This document shows, one piece after another, positions 14,167-24,113 of a stretch of 64,000 nt of DNA. The stretch spans positions 930,001 through 994,000 of the forward strand of contig NZ_WBKO01000001.1 in the NCBI RefSeq assembly GCF_032842345.1, written 5' to 3'. The notes under the pieces were generated by a model that saw nothing but the letters and a program-made list of their open reading frames with translations, made no database searches and was not told the DNA's origin. Origin of the DNA: Methanoculleus caldifontis. GTDB lineage: Archaea; Halobacteriota; Methanomicrobia; Methanomicrobiales; Methanoculleaceae. The translations under genes were made by a program, and so were the position numbers. Each line of letters starts with the position of its first letter. Positions within the stretch are counted from its first letter, which is position 1.

Positions 14167-15405
14167 TCACCTGATGCTGCCGAACTCCTTGCTCACGTCG
14201 GTGGCGGAGTGGTAGGTCCGGTTGCTGAACTCTTCGAGCGCCGCGATCACGCTCTCCGGGGCATCGTTCTCTCGCGCTCGGGCGATGATCTCCTGTCTTC
14301 CCGCCGGGTAATCCATGCCCTTCAGATAGACCTGGAGATCGGCGGCGGAGAGGCGGGCGGGCGACGGCCCCGCTCTCCGGGTTTCGTGCCGCTCCTCGCG
14401 GGCCTCCGCGGTGACGACCGGCGCCTGGACCATCTCCTCTCTGCTGACCAGCCTCTCTCTCTGGACTTCCTCCGCGCTGATCTCCGGGGCCGGGGGCATC
14501 TCGGTCGAGGCGGGGTGTCCGCCACGGGTCTCCCGGCCGAACTCGACGCTCACGTCGGCTGCTGACTTGTAGGTCCGGTCGCTGAAGCCTTCGAGCGTCG
14601 TGATGACGCTATCGGGGGCGTCGTTCCTTCGTGCCCGGCTTACCAGATCCCGCCTCTCTGCCGGATAGTCCATCCCCTTGAGGTAGACCTGCAGGTCGGC
14701 GGCGGAGAGATGCCCCGGAGACGGCCCCCGGGTCGTGAGGGGCTGCTTTGCCTCCGTCACCGGTCGGGTCTCCGGCCGGGCGGGCTCCTCGCGCCGGACC
14801 TCCTCGACGACGGCTCCTGTCGGCCGAACCTCCGCCCGGACGGGGCGCTCTTCGGTCTGCCGTCTCGTTGGCTGCCCTCCCCAGCCGCCCGCGACCGTCT
14901 GGACGGCCGGCTGCGGCGGGATGTCTCTCTCGCCTCCCGGGAACGTGGATTCGGCCGGCCGTGCCTCGCTTTCGACCCGTGACGGGGGGATTGCTTCTCC
15001 TGCGCCGCGGGCAGAGGGCTCTATCTTCCTCTGTGCCGGTGCGGTCCGGATCACGCTCCAGTCACTCTCGCCGGGCATGGTGTCCCGGGCGAAGCCCTGC
15101 GCATTGTCGAGCGTCCGCCTGTCCGTATCCACGATAGCGACCTTCTCCCGCGGGCGGATACGGACCGCTTCCCAGGGTATGGCGAAGCGTTTCTCCCCGA
15201 AACCCAGGATTCCACCGTATGCGAGCACGGCGTAGGCGATGCAGCCGCTCTTGCGGTCAATTGCGACCTCGGTGAGGTCGCCAAGCCCCTCTCCCTCCGG
15301 GTTCTGCACCTTGATATTCGAGATGTCGTCTGCACGCATCAGGTCTACTGTCTCTTCCATTCCCCGCCGGGTCTCCAGAACCGGCCCTGCCTGTCTCTCA
15401 GCCAT
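14167..15405 (-). CDS. PRC-barrel protein with two DUF2795-like repeats (paralogue B)
   Basis: 412 aa, same plan as its neighbour: PRC-barrel at about residues 22-105 (IKVQNPEGEGLGDLTEVAID...GGILGFGEKRFAIPWEAV), a long charged linker, then DUF2795-like modules near residues 230-290 and 350-410 (LSAADLQVYLKGMDYPAERR and LSAADLQVYLKGMDYPAGRQ). GGAGG ten bases before the ATG supports the start. The modules are very alike between the two proteins, pointing to duplication, while the linkers have diverged. PRC barrels occur in proteins tied to RNA processing, photosynthetic reaction centres and CdvA-type division proteins; no specific role can be assigned. Confidence 0.86.
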   Translation of the reverse strand: MAERQAGPVLETRRGMEETVDLMRADDISNIKVQNPEGEGLGDLTEVAIDRKSGCIAYAVLAYGGILGFGEKRFAIPWEAVRIRPREKVAIVDTDRRTLDNAQGFARDTMPGESDWSVIRTAPAQRKIEPSARGAGEAIPPSRVESEARPAESTFPGGERDIPPQPAVQTVAGGWGGQPTRRQTEERPVRAEVRPTGAVVEEVRREEPARPETRPVTEAKQPLTTRGPSPGHLSAADLQVYLKGMDYPAERRDLVSRARRNDAPDSVITTLEGFSDRTYKSAADVSVEFGRETRGGHPASTEMPPAPEISAEEVQRERLVSREEMVQAPVVTAEAREERHETRRAGPSPARLSAADLQVYLKGMDYPAGRQEIIARARENDAPESVIAALEEFSNRTYHSATDVSKEFGSIR

Positions 15406-15563: not shown

Positions 15564-16877
15564 CTACGTCCGGGCCCGGCCATACCGGAGGATGAGCTCG
15601 GTCGCCGCCCGGATGTCCTGCCCCTGCTTCCGCGCCTCAGCGAGGTAGGTGGCGTAGACCTCGTCGGTCACGAGCCGTATCTGCGGCCGGAAGATATCGG
15701 CGTGCATCATCATGTCAAAACAGCGGGCCTCGCTCTCGGTGAGACCGAGTGTGCGGTACTCCCCGGTGTGGGGAACGAACGCCGGGTTCTGATCCCGCGG
15801 GGTCTTTACGGCGAGGTCTGCGAGCGGGGTGCCGGGGATGGGCTCGGCGCTGCTCACGAAGACGTCGTCGAGGCAGAGTGCGGCGATCAGGTCCTTCGTC
15901 GCCTCGTAGTCCCGGCCCGTCTCGCCCGGGTAGCCGACGATGAAACTCCCCGCCACCCGGAGGCCGTGCTCCCGGCACCGCTCAACCGCCTCCTCGACCT
16001 GCCGGACCTTCGCGCCCTTGCCCATCAGGCGGAGCACCCGGTCGCTCCCCGACTCGATCCCGAAGAAGACCCACCCGATGGTGTACGCCCGGATGGCGTC
16101 CAGGATCTCATCGGTGATGCAGTCCACGCGGATGTCGGGGGAGGAGACGTTCCGCGGCCCCATCACCTCCGCCATGCCGCGGAGGAGAGCGATGAACGCT
16201 TCAGGGTCCATCTCACCGTCGCGCGAACCGTAGAGCGAGCCCGTCCCCCCGGAGACCGAGAGCCTCGTCGCCCCCGCCGCGCGGAATGCCCTGACCTCCG
16301 TAAGGATGCTCGCAAGATCCCTGCTCCGGACCTCTCTCCCGAAGAACCGGGGGACCTGGCAGAAGGTGCACCCCCCGATGCATCCGCGGTGGGTCTCGAT
16401 GTAGGCGCTCGCGCCCCGGACGCTCTGGCTCCCGATATCCTCCGGGATCAGGGGGAGGGACCGATCGATCGGCGCCGGCGGGGCGGGAGGCGTCACGAAC
16501 GGCCGGTCTCCGTCGAGGTAGGCGATGCCGGGGAGGGTGGGCGAGACCCCCTCGCTGACGAGGCGAACGATCGTCTCCTCGCCCTCGCCGACGACCACGG
16601 CGTCGGGGCCGAGCTCGCCGAGAACGATCTCCGGCACCGCCGAGACCGGCCCCCCGACGTAGACCTTCCCGCCCCGTTCGCGGTGGGTCCGGACCAGGTT
16701 CCGGACTGCGGGGTCGAGGAGGTGCTGGGTCGAGAAGAGGCTCGCGACCAGGAGCGAGCCTGCCGGGACGGCGGGCGTCCGGGTGAGCGTGACCGTATGG
16801 CCCGCGTCGCGGAGGACGCCGCCGATCAGCATGGCGCCGTAGGTGTAGATCCCGGGGGAGAAGACCGTGATATCCAT
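15564..16877 (-). CDS. B12-binding/radical SAM domain protein
   Basis: 437 aa. Residues 1-110 form a cobalamin-binding Rossmann-type domain (GGVLRDAGHTVTLTRT, then VYVGGPVSAVPEIVL and VGEGEETIVRL). The radical SAM core follows with HRGCIGGCTFC, cysteines 166, 170 and 173 (CX3CX2C), and SVSGGTGSLYG. This is the class B radical SAM methyltransferase-like arrangement found in archaeal families of unknown substrate. It is not obviously the McrA arginine methylase, which normally sits in or near the mcr operon. A TATA-like GTATAC lies just upstream (about 16900-16907). The Cys-rich protein gene upstream on the same strand may share its transcript. Confidence 0.88.
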   Translation of the reverse strand: MDITVFSPGIYTYGAMLIGGVLRDAGHTVTLTRTPAVPAGSLLVASLFSTQHLLDPAVRNLVRTHRERGGKVYVGGPVSAVPEIVLGELGPDAVVVGEGEETIVRLVSEGVSPTLPGIAYLDGDRPFVTPPAPPAPIDRSLPLIPEDIGSQSVRGASAYIETHRGCIGGCTFCQVPRFFGREVRSRDLASILTEVRAFRAAGATRLSVSGGTGSLYGSRDGEMDPEAFIALLRGMAEVMGPRNVSSPDIRVDCITDEILDAIRAYTIGWVFFGIESGSDRVLRLMGKGAKVRQVEEAVERCREHGLRVAGSFIVGYPGETGRDYEATKDLIAALCLDDVFVSSAEPIPGTPLADLAVKTPRDQNPAFVPHTGEYRTLGLTESEARCFDMMMHADIFRPQIRLVTDEVYATYLAEARKQGQDIRAATELILRYGRART

Positions 16878-16931: not shown

Positions 16932-17609
16932 TCAGGGGGCTACCGGCCGCCGGAACTTCCGGGCCTCGGCGACGGTGTGGGCGCCACGGTCCGATGCGGC
17001 GATCAGCCTGCCCTGGAGCCGCATGATATCGGCGATGAGCGGCTGGGGGTTCTTCTCCAGCGTCTCGGCGACAACAGCCCGGGCCTCGCGGAACCTTCCC
17101 GCCCGGCGGAGCAGGTCCGCGAGGAGCGCCTCGTCGGCCCCATCCTGGGGAACCAGCCGCTCGCCCTGGTCCCATGCCCGGTGCAGGAGGTCGGCGGCGC
17201 GCTTCCGGCAGACCCTGGCGGCGACATCTTCCCCTTCATCGTCGCAGATCCAGGCGGCGTGAAGGGACGCCCAGGCCGCCTGGGCCGGAGATCCGAGGTC
17301 TTCCTGGACGATCGACCAGCAGAGGAAGGTGTTCGCGATCGCCGGGAACTTCCGGTTGTCGAGCTGCCAGCGGTAGCGGGGGAGTTTCACCACGTCGGCG
17401 GCCCTGTCCAGCGGCCGGCCCGGGTCCGGGGCAGCGTAGCCGCAGGAAGGACATCGTTTCACCCATGCGTAGATGGTGGACCGGAGCGGTTCGGCCGGGC
17501 GGGTGTCGAGGTCCCGTGACCCGACGCTCACGGCGCCCTCGGGAATGGTGAACCGGCAGGACTCGCCGCAGACCGAGCAGGTGGTGTTGAGGTAGTGGAG
17601 GTGGGTCAT
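16932..17609 (-). CDS. Cys-rich (zinc-ribbon-like) protein, DUF2225-like
   Basis: 225 aa from ATG 17609 (MTHLHYLNTTCSVCGESC). Two Cys pairs, CSVC near residue 11 and CPSC near residue 55, plus C18, suggest a metal-binding head; the rest is helical with TPR-like character (AWASLHAAWICDDEGED, then LADLLRRAGRFREARAVV). The arrangement recalls the DUF2225 group, whose function is unknown; this assignment is by eye. The promoter places the transcript start only a few bases before the ATG. It lies 54 bases upstream of the B12/radical SAM gene in the same direction. Confidence 0.7.
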   Translation of the reverse strand: MTHLHYLNTTCSVCGESCRFTIPEGAVSVGSRDLDTRPAEPLRSTIYAWVKRCPSCGYAAPDPGRPLDRAADVVKLPRYRWQLDNRKFPAIANTFLCWSIVQEDLGSPAQAAWASLHAAWICDDEGEDVAARVCRKRAADLLHRAWDQGERLVPQDGADEALLADLLRRAGRFREARAVVAETLEKNPQPLIADIMRLQGRLIAASDRGAHTVAEARKFRRPVAP

Positions 17610-17634
17610 GGATGGGGCTGAATGGCCTACCCTG

Positions 17635-17648
17635 AAATATATAATTTC
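17635..17648 (-). promoter_or_regulatory. strong TATA box, near-leaderless promoter
   Basis: Read leftward, AAATTATATATTT is an excellent archaeal TATA element. Its centre is about 30 bases from ATG 17609, so transcription should begin within a few bases of the start codon, which fits the absence of a Shine-Dalgarno sequence. Confidence 0.55.
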
Positions 17649-17718
17649 TCGTCGATGGAAAACGAGGAGAGAGCGGGCCGCCGGCAACCGCCCGTGGGGA
17701 GCGAAGTGTGGCATGGAC

Positions 17719-17744
17719 TTCGCGCCTTCGCGCCCTCGCGTGAG
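17719..17744. repeat. single arm of the dispersed palindromic repeat
   Basis: CTTCGCGCCTTCGCGCCCTCGCGTGAG is a one-sided arm of the family, between the divergent promoter at 17640 and the stop of the ABC permease. No matching left arm is visible. Confidence 0.55.
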
Positions 17745-17781
17745 AAAACCGGGACACGCAGGGGGATCGGGGTCCCCGCCG

Positions 17782-18867
17782 TCACCGGGCCGTTGCCGGG
17801 GGAGCCCGTGCGACCCGGCGGCCGTAGGCCGCGACGGCACCGGCAAGGAGCGCCGTTGCGACGGTTACCAGGGCGAGGATCAGCCAGTGGACCGGGCCTG
17901 CGGTCTCCACCGCGAGCCTGACCACGAGGTTGAGCGGGTTGTAGGGGACGGCCATGACCAGGAGGAAGAGCACCACGACCGCGGTCGAGAAGACGAACTG
18001 GGCGCTGGTCCGCTCGCGGTAGTGGAGCGCCGTCGCGGCGCCGAGGAGGATGAGGAAGAGCCCGGCCGCCGCGACATGGAGGAGGATCGGGACGGCGTTC
18101 CCCACCATGATCCCGTTCAGGCCGAGGAGGAGGATCCAGGCCCCGGCCTGGACCGGGACGATGGCCCAGCAGGCGAGGATCTTCCCGAAGACCATCTCCG
18201 TGAACGTGACCGGCGTCGAGAGGAGGGTCTCGAGCGTCTGGCGCTGGTACTCCTCGGTGATGAGGTCGATGATCAGGGCCGCCGAGATGATCGCCGGGAG
18301 GAGGACGAGGATCGGGAGGAGGAGGCCGTAGACGAACTCATAGAAACTCTCCGCGTTCCCGGCGTCGGGGAAGTTCAGCCCGACCGGGAAGGAGACCATC
18401 CGGTCGGCCCGGACCTCGCGGAGCTCCCTCTCGTAGCCCTGGAGGACTTCTTTGATCTTGACGTTGATGACGCTCGACTGCAGGTCGTTCTGGATGAGGT
18501 AAAGCGTGATCGCGACCGGCCCTTCGGCGTCGGGCGGCGTGTCGGGAGCGTAGATCACCGCCGCCACTCTCCGCTCCCGGAGCGCCGCAAGTGCCGGGGA
18601 GAGATCCATCCTGTGCAGGACGAGGTCGTGGCGCTTCTCGAACTCGTCGATGAGGGGTGAGTCCGCCCCGGCGTAGCCGACGCCGTAGGTGGCCGTCGAG
18701 TAGCCCTCGAGCGCCTCCGGGTCGTACATCGCGGTGAGCCCTACCATCAAGAATGAGGAGAACATCGCGATGAATACCTGCAAGAGGATGGCAAAGACGA
18801 TCGTCTTCTCCGAGGAGAGGCCGGAGAGTTCCTTTTTTGCGACAAGACCGATATGGCGGGCGTTCAT
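17782..18867 (-). CDS. ABC-2 type transporter permease
   Basis: 361 aa. One N-terminal membrane helix (about 20-45) is followed by a long extracytoplasmic domain (about 45-165) and then five hydrophobic segments to the C-terminus, the plan of ABC-2/NatB-type permeases. The segment EEYQRQTLETLLSTPVTFTE before the second membrane block is the typical ABC-2 coupling region. It overlaps the start of the larger permease by four bases, so the two are translationally coupled and probably form a heterodimeric channel with the ATPase encoded divergently at 20752. Substrate unknown; relatives export sodium, drugs or peptides. Confidence 0.88.
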   Translation of the reverse strand: MNARHIGLVAKKELSGLSSEKTIVFAILLQVFIAMFSSFLMVGLTAMYDPEALEGYSTATYGVGYAGADSPLIDEFEKRHDLVLHRMDLSPALAALRERRVAAVIYAPDTPPDAEGPVAITLYLIQNDLQSSVINVKIKEVLQGYERELREVRADRMVSFPVGLNFPDAGNAESFYEFVYGLLLPILVLLPAIISAALIIDLITEEYQRQTLETLLSTPVTFTEMVFGKILACWAIVPVQAGAWILLLGLNGIMVGNAVPILLHVAAAGLFLILLGAATALHYRERTSAQFVFSTAVVVLFLLVMAVPYNPLNLVVRLAVETAGPVHWLILALVTVATALLAGAVAAYGRRVARAPPATAR

Positions 18868-20669
18868 GACAGGCCTCCGAGGAGGAAGTAGAGGTTATAG
18901 AGGCTGTGGACCACGCTTGCCACGACGAGGCCGGGGACGTAGGCGCGCCTCCCCCCGACGAGGAGGAAGGTCCCGGTGATCAGCACCCCTCCGATGTGGA
19001 GGAGGAGCGGCATCCAGAGCACCTGGAGGGAGAGGAAGAGGACACTCCCGAAGATCGACTCGGTGATCTGGGAGAGCGTGGCAAACAGGAGGAGTTTCTC
19101 CCCGACCAGGAACCCGGCGCCGATGGCGACCGCTCCGAGGAGCAGGTTTTTCACGGTGAGGAATCCCGGCCGTTCCCGCGCTATCGCGTAGAGCCCGACG
19201 GATTTCGCGACCTCCTCGATGAACGCCGCCGAGACCGTCAGGATGACGAGCGAGAGCGGCATCGGGATGTTGAAGAAGAGGACGAGCGTCATCATCTGGA
19301 CCATGAAGACGAACGGTATCGTGAAGGCTGAGAGGAGGAAGAGCGAGAGGTGCGGGTGGTCGCGGCCGATCACGCCCGCGACGAAGTCCACGAGTCTCGA
19401 GGTGAGGGGTTTCTCGGAGAAGAGGCGCTCCTCGCGGAAGTTGACCGTCCCGGCGTAGATCAGGACGGCGCTCGTGAGGAAGAAGAGCGCGGTCGAGTAG
19501 ATGTACTCGACGGCCGTGAACCCCTCGCCCTGGATCTGGAGGACGACCAGAGTGAGGGGGGAGATAATGCTGATGACGTGGGTGTTCGCAAAGACCGTCG
19601 GGAAGAAGAGGTACGACGTGGCGAGGGTCGAGAAGAAGATCGAGACGAACGAGAGCTCCTTGAAACTCCGTGCGGCCATCCCGATGATCAGGGCGTTTGC
19701 GAGGAAGAAGAGGATGACCGGGAAGAGCGGGAGGAGGATCGCGAGCGGTGCGCCGATGAAGACGGTGATCGCGGCCGAGACGAGGAGCATGATCGCGAGG
19801 TACGGGACGGCCTTCCCGACGACGATCGCGGCGGGCCGGACGGGTGTGGAGAGGAGTGCCTCCCCCGCCCGCCCGATCCGCTCGTTCATCACGCTCATCA
19901 TGAAGAACTGGGAGGTGAAGTAGAGCGGGAAGATGAAGACGAAGACTAGAATGAGCGCGTCGTAGGGGAGCGGAGGCGAGAGTTCCGCTGGCGTCCGGAG
20001 CCCGTCCGTGGCGGAGCTGCTCGATATGATGCCGGTGTAGCGGGAGAGGGGGCTCTGGCTCCCCGTCTCCGCGAGGTGCTGGCGCAGGTCGTTTTCGGAG
20101 ACCGGGACGGTCGCGGGCGGGGGGGTCACGGCCTCCACCGGTCCCGAGGGGGCGGGCGGCCTCCGGGTATCCGCCGGGGCGCCGACCTGCTGCCCGCTCT
20201 GGGTTGCCAGGAAGTCGATCTCGCTCCTGACGTACTCGAGGTCGATCCAGAGCGGGTAGCCGGCGAAGAGGTCGGGCTGGGCTGCGGCCACCCGCGAGAC
20301 GTAGGCGTCGTAATCGCGGCGAAGCGCCGTCAGGGCCGCCCGTCCTTTATCCGTGTCGGCGGCGTAGACCTCGCCGGAGAGGACGAGGATGTCGTACGCG
20401 AACCGGTCGTTCCAGAGGGTGTGCCCGTCGGCGAGTTCGACGGTGAAGCGGCTGTCGGGGGTGACGATCCGGGCGACTTCGGGGTCGTCGATCCCGATGC
20501 GGTAGATGCCGTCCTGCATGTGGACGCCGCTCTGGGCGGCGAATGCGGTCACCAGGACCAGGAGAGCGAGCAGTCCCGCGGCGAGCGGCAGGACGCTTCT
20601 GCCCATCGTGGTCATCGACCGGTTCATCTCCCAGACGGCGATCGTTCGGATGGAGGAAGCGAGACTCAT
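18864..20669 (-). CDS. ABC-2 permease fused to PrsW-like intramembrane protease
   Basis: 601 aa, about 200 longer than a plain ABC-2 permease. Residues 1-420: N-terminal membrane helix, extracytoplasmic domain to about 240, then a multispanning ABC-2 block with NERIGRAGEALLSTPVRPAA. Residues about 430-601 add a second membrane domain with PrsW/M82 signatures: EEVAKS at 485-490, GAGFLVGE ending at Glu524, His558 in LLLHIGG and VVHSLYN with His588. These Glu and His positions match the likely metal-binding residues of PrsW-type site proteases, so the fused domain may be active. The gene is divergent from the ATPase gene across an 82-base gap containing a palindrome. Confidence 0.85.
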   Translation of the reverse strand: MSLASSIRTIAVWEMNRSMTTMGRSVLPLAAGLLALLVLVTAFAAQSGVHMQDGIYRIGIDDPEVARIVTPDSRFTVELADGHTLWNDRFAYDILVLSGEVYAADTDKGRAALTALRRDYDAYVSRVAAAQPDLFAGYPLWIDLEYVRSEIDFLATQSGQQVGAPADTRRPPAPSGPVEAVTPPPATVPVSENDLRQHLAETGSQSPLSRYTGIISSSSATDGLRTPAELSPPLPYDALILVFVFIFPLYFTSQFFMMSVMNERIGRAGEALLSTPVRPAAIVVGKAVPYLAIMLLVSAAITVFIGAPLAILLPLFPVILFFLANALIIGMAARSFKELSFVSIFFSTLATSYLFFPTVFANTHVISIISPLTLVVLQIQGEGFTAVEYIYSTALFFLTSAVLIYAGTVNFREERLFSEKPLTSRLVDFVAGVIGRDHPHLSLFLLSAFTIPFVFMVQMMTLVLFFNIPMPLSLVILTVSAAFIEEVAKSVGLYAIARERPGFLTVKNLLLGAVAIGAGFLVGEKLLLFATLSQITESIFGSVLFLSLQVLWMPLLLHIGGVLITGTFLLVGGRRAYVPGLVVASVVHSLYNLYFLLGGLS

Positions 20670-20751: not shown

Positions 20752-21639
20752 ATGATCACCGCCCGCTCTCTTGTCAAACACTACGGCGACTTCCCGGCCC
20801 TCGACGGCGTCACCTTCGATCTCGACGACGCACAGATTCTCGGGGTGATCGGGCACAACGGTGCAGGAAAGACGACGCTCCTGAAGATCATGGCCGGCCT
20901 GATCTCGCCGACTTCGGGAAACCTCGAGATCGACGGCGTCGATGTCGTCAGGCATCCGCTCGACCTGAAACGGAACCTGGGCTATCTTCCCGAGGAGTCG
21001 CGGCTCTACGAGACGATGACCACGGATGCCTACCTCTCGTTCTTCGGCGAGATCTACGGCCTCTCGAAGGCGGCGATCAGGGAGCGGCGCGAAGACCTCC
21101 TCGTCTCGCTCGCGCTCGAGCCGAACGGAAAGAAGATCGGGGAGTTTTCGAAGGGAATGAAGCGGAAGGTCGCCATCGCCCGGTCGCTGATGCACGATCC
21201 CGGCCTGCTCATCTACGACGAACCCACCTCCGGCCTCGACCCCATGACCTCCCGGTCGGTGCTCGAGTACGTCAAGGGTCTCAGAGAACAGGGCAAGACG
21301 GTGATCTTCTCGGCCCACAACCTCTTCCAGGTGGAGGAGGCCTGCGACCTCGTCCTGATCCTGCGCCGGGGAAAGGTGGTCGCGAGCGGGACTATCCCCG
21401 AGCTCCGCGAGACCTTCGGCTCGATCACCTACCAGATCTTCTTCAGGGTCCCCGACCCGGCGGCCTTCGCGACGTCGGTCACCTGCACGGCAGAGAACGG
21501 GGGGTATCTCGCCGAGGCACGCTCGGTGGAGGAGTTGAACCGGGCGACCGCGGCGCTCGCGGCCGACGGCGCGACGATCGAGCGGATCGAGTCGCATTAT
21601 CCGACGCTCGAGGAGATGCTCCTGAAGATCGGGCGGTGA
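20752..21639 (+). CDS. ABC transporter ATP-binding protein
   Basis: 295 aa nucleotide-binding subunit. Walker A is GHNGAGKTT near residue 38, the signature is a SKGMKRKVAIAR variant (residue about 130) instead of LSGGQ, and Walker B is LLIYDEPTSGLD near 155, with H-loop FSAHN at about 186. The SKGM signature is usual in ABC-2 exporters of the drug/sodium type. The C-terminal 80 residues form an accessory domain. AGGGAGAT precedes the ATG. It should energise the two permeases encoded divergently at 17782-20669. Confidence 0.95.
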   Translation: MITARSLVKHYGDFPALDGVTFDLDDAQILGVIGHNGAGKTTLLKIMAGLISPTSGNLEIDGVDVVRHPLDLKRNLGYLPEESRLYETMTTDAYLSFFGEIYGLSKAAIRERREDLLVSLALEPNGKKIGEFSKGMKRKVAIARSLMHDPGLLIYDEPTSGLDPMTSRSVLEYVKGLREQGKTVIFSAHNLFQVEEACDLVLILRRGKVVASGTIPELRETFGSITYQIFFRVPDPAAFATSVTCTAENGGYLAEARSVEELNRATAALAADGATIERIESHYPTLEEMLLKIGR

Positions 21640-21711: not shown

Positions 21712-21899
21712 CGGTAATAAGATTTAATGCCTATTGGTGCCCAGGAATCTTTGTCCGGGAGAAGGTGCCCGGGAGTACGATCCCGTGCCCTGCCCCGGAG
21801 AAGACGCTCGCACCGGAGATGCCGGCGGATGTGCCCTGCCGAAACTCCGGAGATTCATCGTGCCAGTGTTCAGCATCACGTTAAAACGGGTGATTGCAT

Positions 21900-24113
21900 A
21901 TGCAGAGAGACAATCGCGAGACGACGGAAACAGGAGAGTTTTACCGGGCACTCTACGAAAGCGTGCCCGTAGCGCTCCTCCTCATCGACGACAATCGTAT
22001 CATCGAATGCAACAGAGCGGCAGAGGCCCTTTTTGACTGTGGCGGGCGCGAGAACCTGATCGGCCTGGACCCTGCCCGGCTCTCCCCCGGAATGCAGCCG
22101 GACGGGAGCGCATCGGCAGACCTGGCCGCAAGGCACCTCCGTGAGGCCCTCTCGGGCCGCCGGACGTTCGAGTGGGTCCACCGGCGTGCCGGAGACGGGA
22201 CCTTCACCGCGGAGGTGACCCTCACGCCGGCCGATACCGGCTCCGGCCTGAAGATCCTTGCGGCCGTCCGCGACATCAGCGAGGAGAAGGAGGTCCGAAA
22301 GCAGGCCGAAGAGGCCGGGCATCGGGCCGACGCGATCCTTCAGGAGAATCCGATCCCCACAATCATCTGGGACCGGAGCCTGCATGTGAAGGCGGTGAAC
22401 GAAGCGTTCCTGAAGATCACCGGCTATGACAGGAAGAGGGTCGAGTCCATGACGCTCAAGGACTTCAGCCACGTCGGCAGCCAGTCCGGCCAGGAGGTGG
22501 CGGAGGCCTTCAGGACGAAGCAGGCGACGTCTGCGGAGTTGGCAGTTGCTTTCCCGCACGGGACCTTCTCCTTCATCCGCTACAGCGTGCCGCTTCCCGA
22601 CAGGGCCGGCAACGTCGAGAGCGTGATGGCCGTCTACAAGGACATCACCGACCAGAAAGAGCAGCTGGAGCAGATGCGGGTAATCCAGCAGCAGGCCGAC
22701 GCGATCGTTCAGGAGAACCCGATGCCGATCCTCCTCTGGAAGACCGACCTGACCGTAGAGGTGGTCAACAAGGCGTTCCGCAGGCTCTCCGGTTTCTCCG
22801 ACGAACAGTGCGCCCGCCTCACCGTCCGGGACTTCAAATACCTCAGCCAGTCCGGGGAGGGCGTTGCTGATACGGTGAAGAGCCACAGGGCCAGCAAAGG
22901 CGAGGCCGCCATCGAGTTTCCCGCCGGTATCCGCATCCTCGAGCGATACAACATCCCGCTCCTCGATAGGGCGGGAGACCTCGCGAACGTGCTCACGGTC
23001 TACAACGACATCACGGAGAAACGGAGCCTTGACGAACGGCTCAGGAAGAGCATCGACGAACTCGCCGCGAGCCTCCATGCCGTGGCCGCCGGCGACCTGA
23101 CGAAACTCGCGGTCACCTACCCTGACGACCCGCTCGCTGCGGTCAAGGGGAGCATGAACGAGACGATCGCGGCGCTGACGGATCTCCTCCGGCACCTTCT
23201 CGAGCAGGCGGATGCCCTCGAGCACGCCATCATCGATGTCGGGAAGGGTGCCGACGAGATCGCCCGGGCATCCCAGCAGGTGGCGAACACGGCGCAGAAA
23301 TCCTCTGACGGGGCAAAAGAGCAGATCCGGCAGCTCGACCGGGTCACCAAGAAGGTCGGCGACCTCTCCGCCAGCGTCGAGGAGATCGCAAGCACCGCCC
23401 AGGAGGTCCGGGACCGCGCCTTAAACGTCGCAAAGGCCGGAGAATTTGCCGTCGGGATCGGGAACGAGGCGGGCGAGAAGATGCAGGCGGTCCAGAAGAT
23501 CTCCGAGCGGGCCGTCGAGGAGATCACGAACCTGAACGCGAAGATGCAGGACATCAGCCACATCGTGAAACTCATCACCGATATCGCGAACCAGACCAAT
23601 CTCCTCGCGCTGAACGCCGCGATCGAGGCCGCCCGGGCGGGAGAGCACGGGCGCGGGTTTGCCGTGGTCGCGGGCGAGGTCCGGAACCTCGCCGGGGAGT
23701 CCAAGAGCGCGACCCGGCAGATCGAGGAGGTGATCGGCGGGGTGACCGCGAGCAGCCGGAAGACCGCCGAGGCGATGCAGGGGGCGCACGCGGAGATCCT
23801 CGGGGGGATCGAGAGCGTGAACAAGACCATCGAGGCGCTCAACCGGATGGTCGCCGACGTCGGGGTGGCGGTCAACGGCATCGCCGATATCTCCCGGGCG
23901 ACCGAGAGCCAGGCGGACGAGACGACCTCGGTCACGACGAGCATCGAGGAGGTCTTCGTCCTGGTCCAGGATAACGAGAAAGGCATGGAGAGCCTTGCCG
24001 CGCTCGCTGAAGAGTCGTCTGCCTCGACCGAGGAGGTCGCAAGCGCCTCAAACGAGATCCGGCAGATGGCCCACCAGCTCCGCGAGAAGGTCGCGACGTT
24101 CAGGTTCGAGTGA
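21900..24113 (+). CDS. soluble PAS-domain methyl-accepting chemotaxis protein
   Basis: 737 aa from ATG 21900, with GGTGATT just upstream; TTG at 21894 is less likely. No membrane segment is visible, so the receptor is cytoplasmic. Three PAS domains occupy about residues 15-130, 140-255 and 265-380; the second and third are close paralogues ([20 protein letters not shown] and [20 protein letters not shown]). A HAMP-like link ([19 protein letters not shown]) leads to a long coiled-coil signalling domain with the conserved tip [20 protein letters not shown]. It presumably senses redox, energy or a small ligand and signals through CheW, encoded ten bases downstream. Confidence 0.95.

Follow-up and report, generated by a model that had tools for sequence, protein, structure and literature searches.

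What an intramembrane protease does at the end of an ABC exporter subunit is the question raised by one gene in the 64,000-nucleotide stretch of Methanoculleus caldifontis DNA that was analyzed here (the window). The original prediction was that the encoded protein joins an exporter permease to a PrsW-like protease. Its reading frame, taken from the list of open reading frames of the window, and all four PrsW motifs are present as claimed (Table 1). A gap of 82 bp separates the start of the fusion gene from the divergent ATPase gene.

Table 1. The fusion gene, its predicted halves and motifs, and its partner genes, with positions in the window
Feature	Position	Strand	Remarks
601-aa fusion of an ABC-2 exporter permease and a predicted PrsW-type intramembrane protease	18864..20669	(-)	predicted to have 11 TM helices, with the N-terminus inside and the C-terminus outside
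ABC-2 permease half, residues 1-437	19359..20669	(-)	TM1, ~188-residue extracytoplasmic loop, TM2-TM6 (predicted)
Predicted PrsW/M82 protease half, residues 438-601 plus stop	18864..19358	(-)	five predicted TM helices, compact
Motif 1, EEVAK (E485, E486, K489)	19203..19217	(-)	no substitution in 70 order or 34 phylum-set sequences
Motif 2, FLVGEK (F520, E524, K525), within GAGFLVGEK	19095..19112	(-)	from alignments and hhalign
Motif 3, H558	18996..18998	(-)	no substitution wherever the column exists
Motif 4, HSLYN (H588, N592)	18894..18908	(-)	H invariant; N 31/34, D 3/34
Second ABC-2 permease, 361 aa	17782..18867	(-)	ABC2_membrane_3 66.4 bits; 4-bp overlap with fusion
ABC ATPase, 295 aa, divergent	20752..21639	(+)	ABC_tran 102 bits

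Profile searches place the C-terminal half in the PrsW family

When the 164 residues of the C-terminal half (438-601) are scanned alone they match the Pfam family PF13367 (PrsW) with 26.9 bits, above the curated cut-off of 23.5, and no second Pfam family is found at E<=10. A profile match to some different membrane family alone had been named as an outcome that would refute the original prediction; it did not arise, here or in the related domains, and the proposed fusion is upheld. A six-frame search of the genome (2.6 Mb, 4 contigs) also recovers PF13367 at the place of the fusion, at 24.7 bits and so above the cut-off. PrsW is absent from the Pfam matches at E<=1 when all 601 residues are scanned whole, as it is from the corresponding NCBIfam scan, and routine annotation would therefore overlook the protease half.

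The assignment extends to the relatives of the domain. Taken one by one, 54 related C-terminal domains yield 29 matches to PF13367 at E<=0.01 and not one to another Pfam family; the remaining 25 fall under the detection level of PF13367 yet retain the motif residues. A profile comparison of the 54 fused domains with 16 stand-alone archaeal PrsW proteins in hhalign gave a probability of 94.7% (E 6e-8), with EE..K, GF..E, H and H..YN aligned in register, whilst a profile search of solved-structure sequences returned no match at E<=1. The motifs EExxK, FxxxE, H and HxxxN/D are shared, in the same order, with the M82 family and Bacillus subtilis PrsW. The stand-alone PrsW proteins differ from the fused domain, with its five predicted helices, in having no transporter attached and in the ending of motif 2, which is E-N in the former and E-K in the latter. 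The genome also carries a stand-alone PrsW (locus L001; contig C2, 216679-217206; 233-residue open frame; 139.5 bits).

The catalytic positions are the most constant part of the domain

In 70 orthologues from the order, E485, E486, K489, F520 and E524 occur without exception, and H558, H588 and N592 are constant in the 69 of these that extend so far, the 70th locus being cut by a contig end before these positions. The window protein and 33 orthologues from other families have E485, E486, K489, E524, K525, H558 and H588 in common; the exceptions in this 34-sequence phylum set are a single replacement of F520 by Y and three of N592 by D. Across the 54-domain alignment, which reaches down to ~21% identity to the window domain, there are just eight columns without variation (E485, E486, K489, E524, K525, P554, H558 and H588), and six of these coincide with the seven motif positions (E, E, K, E, H, H), an overlap with P ~6e-9 for random placement over 170 columns. 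Judged from these alignments, the catalytic residues are under strong selection, and their invariance argues for a working protease as the predicted product.

Predicted fold and topology

Since a Foldseek search with the full-length AlphaFold model (mean pLDDT 72.6, with most of residues 131-233 below 50) returned nothing with E below 0.001, the protease domain was folded separately. The resulting model has a mean pLDDT of 91 and a pTM of 0.85. APH-1 chains take the first three places among its Foldseek matches in the PDB (E 0.2-0.7, probability 0.80-0.98), and the top five in VIA-align are either APH-1 chains (Z 10.2-10.6) or BOS-complex/translocon chains (Z 10.5-11.0), aligned over 146-156 residues; Z values below about 13 may reflect an arrangement common among helical bundles, so that the fold backs the profile evidence and does not replace it. 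The BOS-complex/translocon chains are presumably TMEM147. Further down the VIA ranking are SpdC (6u0o, Z 6.6) and Rce1 (4cad, Z 5.3), the latter a modest match. The matched proteins APH-1, TMEM147, SpdC and Rce1 belong to the CPBP/PrsW/APH-1 superfamily, and the predicted structure of the protease domain resembles that fold. Membership of the superfamily is drawn in part from two papers (PMC4602095, PMC3482391). Searched against viral structures, the protease domain had no match of note.

Within this superfamily, APH-1 and TMEM147 act as scaffolds and not as enzymes. That they or their complexes provide the best matches to the modeled domain is the main attraction of supposing that it serves the exporter structurally, in the manner of APH-1, and has no catalytic role. 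Such a scaffold would not need the catalytic motif residues, yet all of these are invariant, and we regard a purely structural role as very improbable.

The N-terminal half scores 27.5 bits against ABC2_membrane_3, under the cut-off of 31.6, and has a weak profile likeness to the second permease (hhalign probability 19%). Its relationship is more readily seen in the full-length model, which matches ABCA4, NosDFY, ABCG5/8 and a mycobacterial efflux pump with Z 14-17, the aligned part being chiefly residues 1 to ~436. By its modeled fold, its paired permease and its ATPase, this half is a six-TM ABC-2 exporter permease. With helix limits placed by hand, the modeled helices and the hydrophobicity point to six TM helices followed by five more, the N-terminus lying inside and the C-terminus outside. 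The distribution of positive charge can be set beside this topology: in the protease part the inner loops average 5.0, 2.4 and 2.2 K/R over 70 sequences, against 0, 0 and 0.1 for the outer loops. Under the predicted topology the motif residues fall mid-membrane in TM8-TM11. The C-terminal half thus has the features by which PrsW/M82 proteins are recognized, namely a score above the Pfam cut-off, the motifs EExxK, FxxxE, His and HxxxN/D conserved in predicted membrane helices, and a modeled fold of the PrsW/CPBP/APH-1 type, and it is on profile and model evidence a PrsW/M82 domain with predicted intramembrane-metalloprotease activity.

The fusion is conserved across the phylum

Within the order, 174 of the 232 genomes have an orthologue, as do 116 of the 135 of good quality, and 36 of its 40 genera are represented. 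In a sample of the phylum, 197 of 392 genomes have one; as tallied from the phylum table, 67 of these belong to the order and the other 130 to 19 further families. We inspected 33 of the 130 outside loci, hand-picked to cover all 19 families, and the fused architecture is found in every one (33/33), although in L179 it is divided between two overlapping frames. The best 80 of 127 relatives from a genome-wide scan are, by their titles, all from Methanomicrobiales or unplaced Euryarchaeota. The original prediction was therefore right but understated, for the fusion of transporter and protease is conserved phylum-wide.

One haloarchaeal plasmid record carries the three genes as an operon. Their annotations there are 'ABC transporter ATP-binding protein', 'ABC transporter permease subunit' and 'ABC transporter permease', none of which refers to a protease. 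Many proteins named 'ABC transporter permease subunit' would on this sequence evidence gain a second, unrecorded activity. The phylum includes genetically workable archaea (Methanosarcina and haloarchaea), which makes the coupling of exporter and protease directly testable. The Haloferax protein HVO_0408 is termed PrsW-like in one paper (PMC9263693).

No copy was detected in 58 of the 232 genomes of the order, including all 25 of genus g13 (genomes G020-G044), and the fusion is thus dispensable. The absence from g13, inferred from the complement of the orthologue list, appears as a lineage-specific loss while most relatives keep the fusion; none of the loci L003-L072 comes from this genus.

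Genus g13 bears on the suggestion that the fusion is a sorting protease, in which the PrsW half would cut the C- or N-terminal anchors of surface proteins and the ABC part would remove the helix. Myxosortase, of the CPBP family, offers a precedent for this activity, being described as an intramembrane protease by which MYXO-CTERM proteins are sorted (PMC11980579). Archaeosortase A is found in 214 of the 232 genomes of the order (134 of the 135 of good quality), so these cells commonly have sorting substrates. Within g13, however, 23 of the 25 genomes have archaeosortase A and the fusion was detected in none (0/25), which indicates that the fusion is not required for the archaeosortase route. 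On the same count archaeosortase A was rejected as a specific partner of the fusion. We consider a sorting function distinctly unlikely.

The fusion travels with a second permease and, nearly always, an ATPase, and with no other conserved gene family

The second permease lies directly downstream of the fusion, on the same strand, in 102 of 103 loci, comprising 69 of 70 in the order and all 33 in the phylum set; the sole order locus lacking it is broken by a contig end. The ATPase adjoins the fusion in 98 of the 103 loci (order 70/70, phylum 28/33), and of the 28 phylum copies 17 are divergent, the other 11 being upstream on the same strand. Four of the five phylum loci without it have at most 2 kb of flank on that side, and in the fifth, L169, several kb of flank contain no ATPase match. 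These counts agree with the earlier claim that two permeases and a divergent ATPase make a complete system. Over 68 loci the pairwise distances of the fusion correlate with those of the second permease (Spearman 0.94) and of the ATPase (0.82), and those of its two halves correlate with one another (0.86). The correlations fit joint vertical inheritance of the encoded sequences, although they include shared phylogeny and do not prove contact.

We clustered open reading frames of at least 90 residues in the 59 loci with wide flanks, setting aside by eye the clusters formed by antisense or wrong-frame reading frames of the triad, and found no further gene family conserved phylum-wide near the three genes. 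No dedicated substrate gene is therefore seen. The original prediction had proposed, as a check, a search for a co-occurring small secreted peptide or a regulator, and neither is conserved among the reading frames of this size in the 59 loci.

This result weighs on the idea of a dedicated peptide or leader-type exporter that would trim, during export, a single precursor or a small set of them akin to pheromones or bacteriocins. SagE-type CPBP proteases are thought to trim precursors beside SagGHI, and here protease and exporter share one chain, with the second permease making a weak match to the SagH family in NCBIfam (27.7 bits, cut-off 450). Against such an exporter stand the lack, among reading frames of at least 90 residues, of a conserved small secreted family at the locus and a core, apparently vertical and near order-wide distribution, unlike that of bacteriocin-type peptide exporters, and we judge it quite improbable. 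The absence of a neighboring substrate gene and the core-like distribution instead speak for general housekeeping and not for a peptide of its own.

A possible exporter with a built-in protease

The arrangement suggests that these archaea cut and expel membrane proteins or peptides with a single machine. The original prediction had offered two conjectures, that the substrate may be processed while it is exported or that the protease may regulate the transporter. The reading that we tentatively favor, as plausible if short of probable, is by analogy that of an ABC-2 exporter with a built-in PrsW-type protease, which would cut membrane-embedded peptides or proteins and clear the fragments as a housekeeping activity. 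The two permeases would form a heterodimer driven by a dimer of the ATPase. Substrates, which would be encoded elsewhere, may be single-pass or otherwise hydrophobic (left-over signal peptides, membrane-anchored or lipo-peptides, orphan helices) and would reach the protease from within the bilayer. The PrsW site would cut them near mid-membrane and the ABC part would extract and export the fragments, serving both membrane clean-up and peptide release.

One chain would thereby do the job of the EcsAB or PptAB exporters and the separate proteases RasP or Eep. RasP and Eep are site-2-type proteases, not PrsW. In these Firmicutes systems the ABC exporter is functionally tied to an intramembrane metalloprotease, with the two being separate proteins. 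Inactivation of Ecs in B. subtilis inhibits proteolysis by RasP, and a 'cleaning function' for membrane peptides has been proposed, the molecule transported by Ecs being described there as unknown (PMC2996298); an eLife paper terms EcsAB a regulator of RasP (PMC7478892), and peptides matured by Eep are reported to be exported by PptAB, for which an interplay with Eep is suggested (PMC7564271). The comparison with Ecs and Ppt concerns function only: no EcsB-type family is among the Pfam matches listed at E<=1 for either permease of the present system.

A bolder proposal, which we hold to be rather doubtful, is that the ABC engine feeds TM helices into the PrsW site or pulls products from it. 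The complex would then be an ATP-powered intramembrane protease, a membrane-embedded counterpart of the AAA+ proteases and an ancient membrane quality control of this archaeal phylum.

The order of control might also be reversed, with the ABC part acting as a sensor or lever for ATP-gated proteolysis of a membrane regulator and transport being secondary. Some ABC systems do serve as sensors, and the adjoining ATPase would supply the control by ATP. The founding role of PrsW is site-1 cleavage of the anti-sigma factor RsiW (PMC4602095). A regulator gene is, however, not conserved beside the triad in the 59 loci, among reading frames of at least 90 residues. We know of no sigma/anti-sigma pair in archaea, and the regulatory reading consequently has no known target; we think it unlikely.

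Comparison with known fusions

Unlike Ecs and RasP, the exporter and the intramembrane protease described here form a single polypeptide, whose catalytic residues are kept throughout the phylum. Of known architectures the nearest is the NCBIfam family NF041647 (ABC transporter permease subunit/CPBP intramembrane protease), in which an ABC-2 type permease and a protease are likewise joined in a single chain of ~600-640 residues with the protease C-terminal. Its protease is of the CPBP branch, whereas that of the present fusion is PrsW. Membership of this family was rejected, as the fusion has no match to it at E<=1 and the second permease scores 58.7 bits against a cut-off of 435; among 21 related genomes none has a match above the cut-off (0/21). 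Because NF041647 matches the partner permease and not the fusion, the two fusions have probably arisen independently, on opposite permease partners. The fusion of an ABC permease to a CPBP protease is thus already known to annotators, and the PrsW version looks like an independent case.

Rce1 has an EExxxR motif without the extra histidine (PMC4602095). PrsW fused to polymorphic toxins and the double PrsW protein PH0065 have been proposed to form an export-and-processing unit, in an account whose accessible part does not mention an ABC permease (PMC3482391). We found no description of an ABC-PrsW fusion in the open-access literature searched; arCOG or the subscription literature may name one.

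Other genes around the triad

On the same strand downstream of the triad, 15564-16877(-) encodes a radical SAM protein with a B12-binding-like domain (Pfam, 97 bits), and a similar protein occurs near the triad in 14 of the 59 wide loci. Between it and the second permease, 16932-17846(-) encodes a DUF2225-like protein with TPR matches (22.6 bits, cut-off 21); its listed start overlaps the second permease and the true start is therefore probably internal. On the other side, the gene beside the ATPase, 21894-24113(+), encodes PAS domains with a methyl-accepting chemotaxis signalling domain, and by eye its product has no obvious transmembrane part. Past the radical SAM gene, the translation of 14167-15405(-) has a repeated LSAADLQVYLKGMDYPA module toward its C-terminus.
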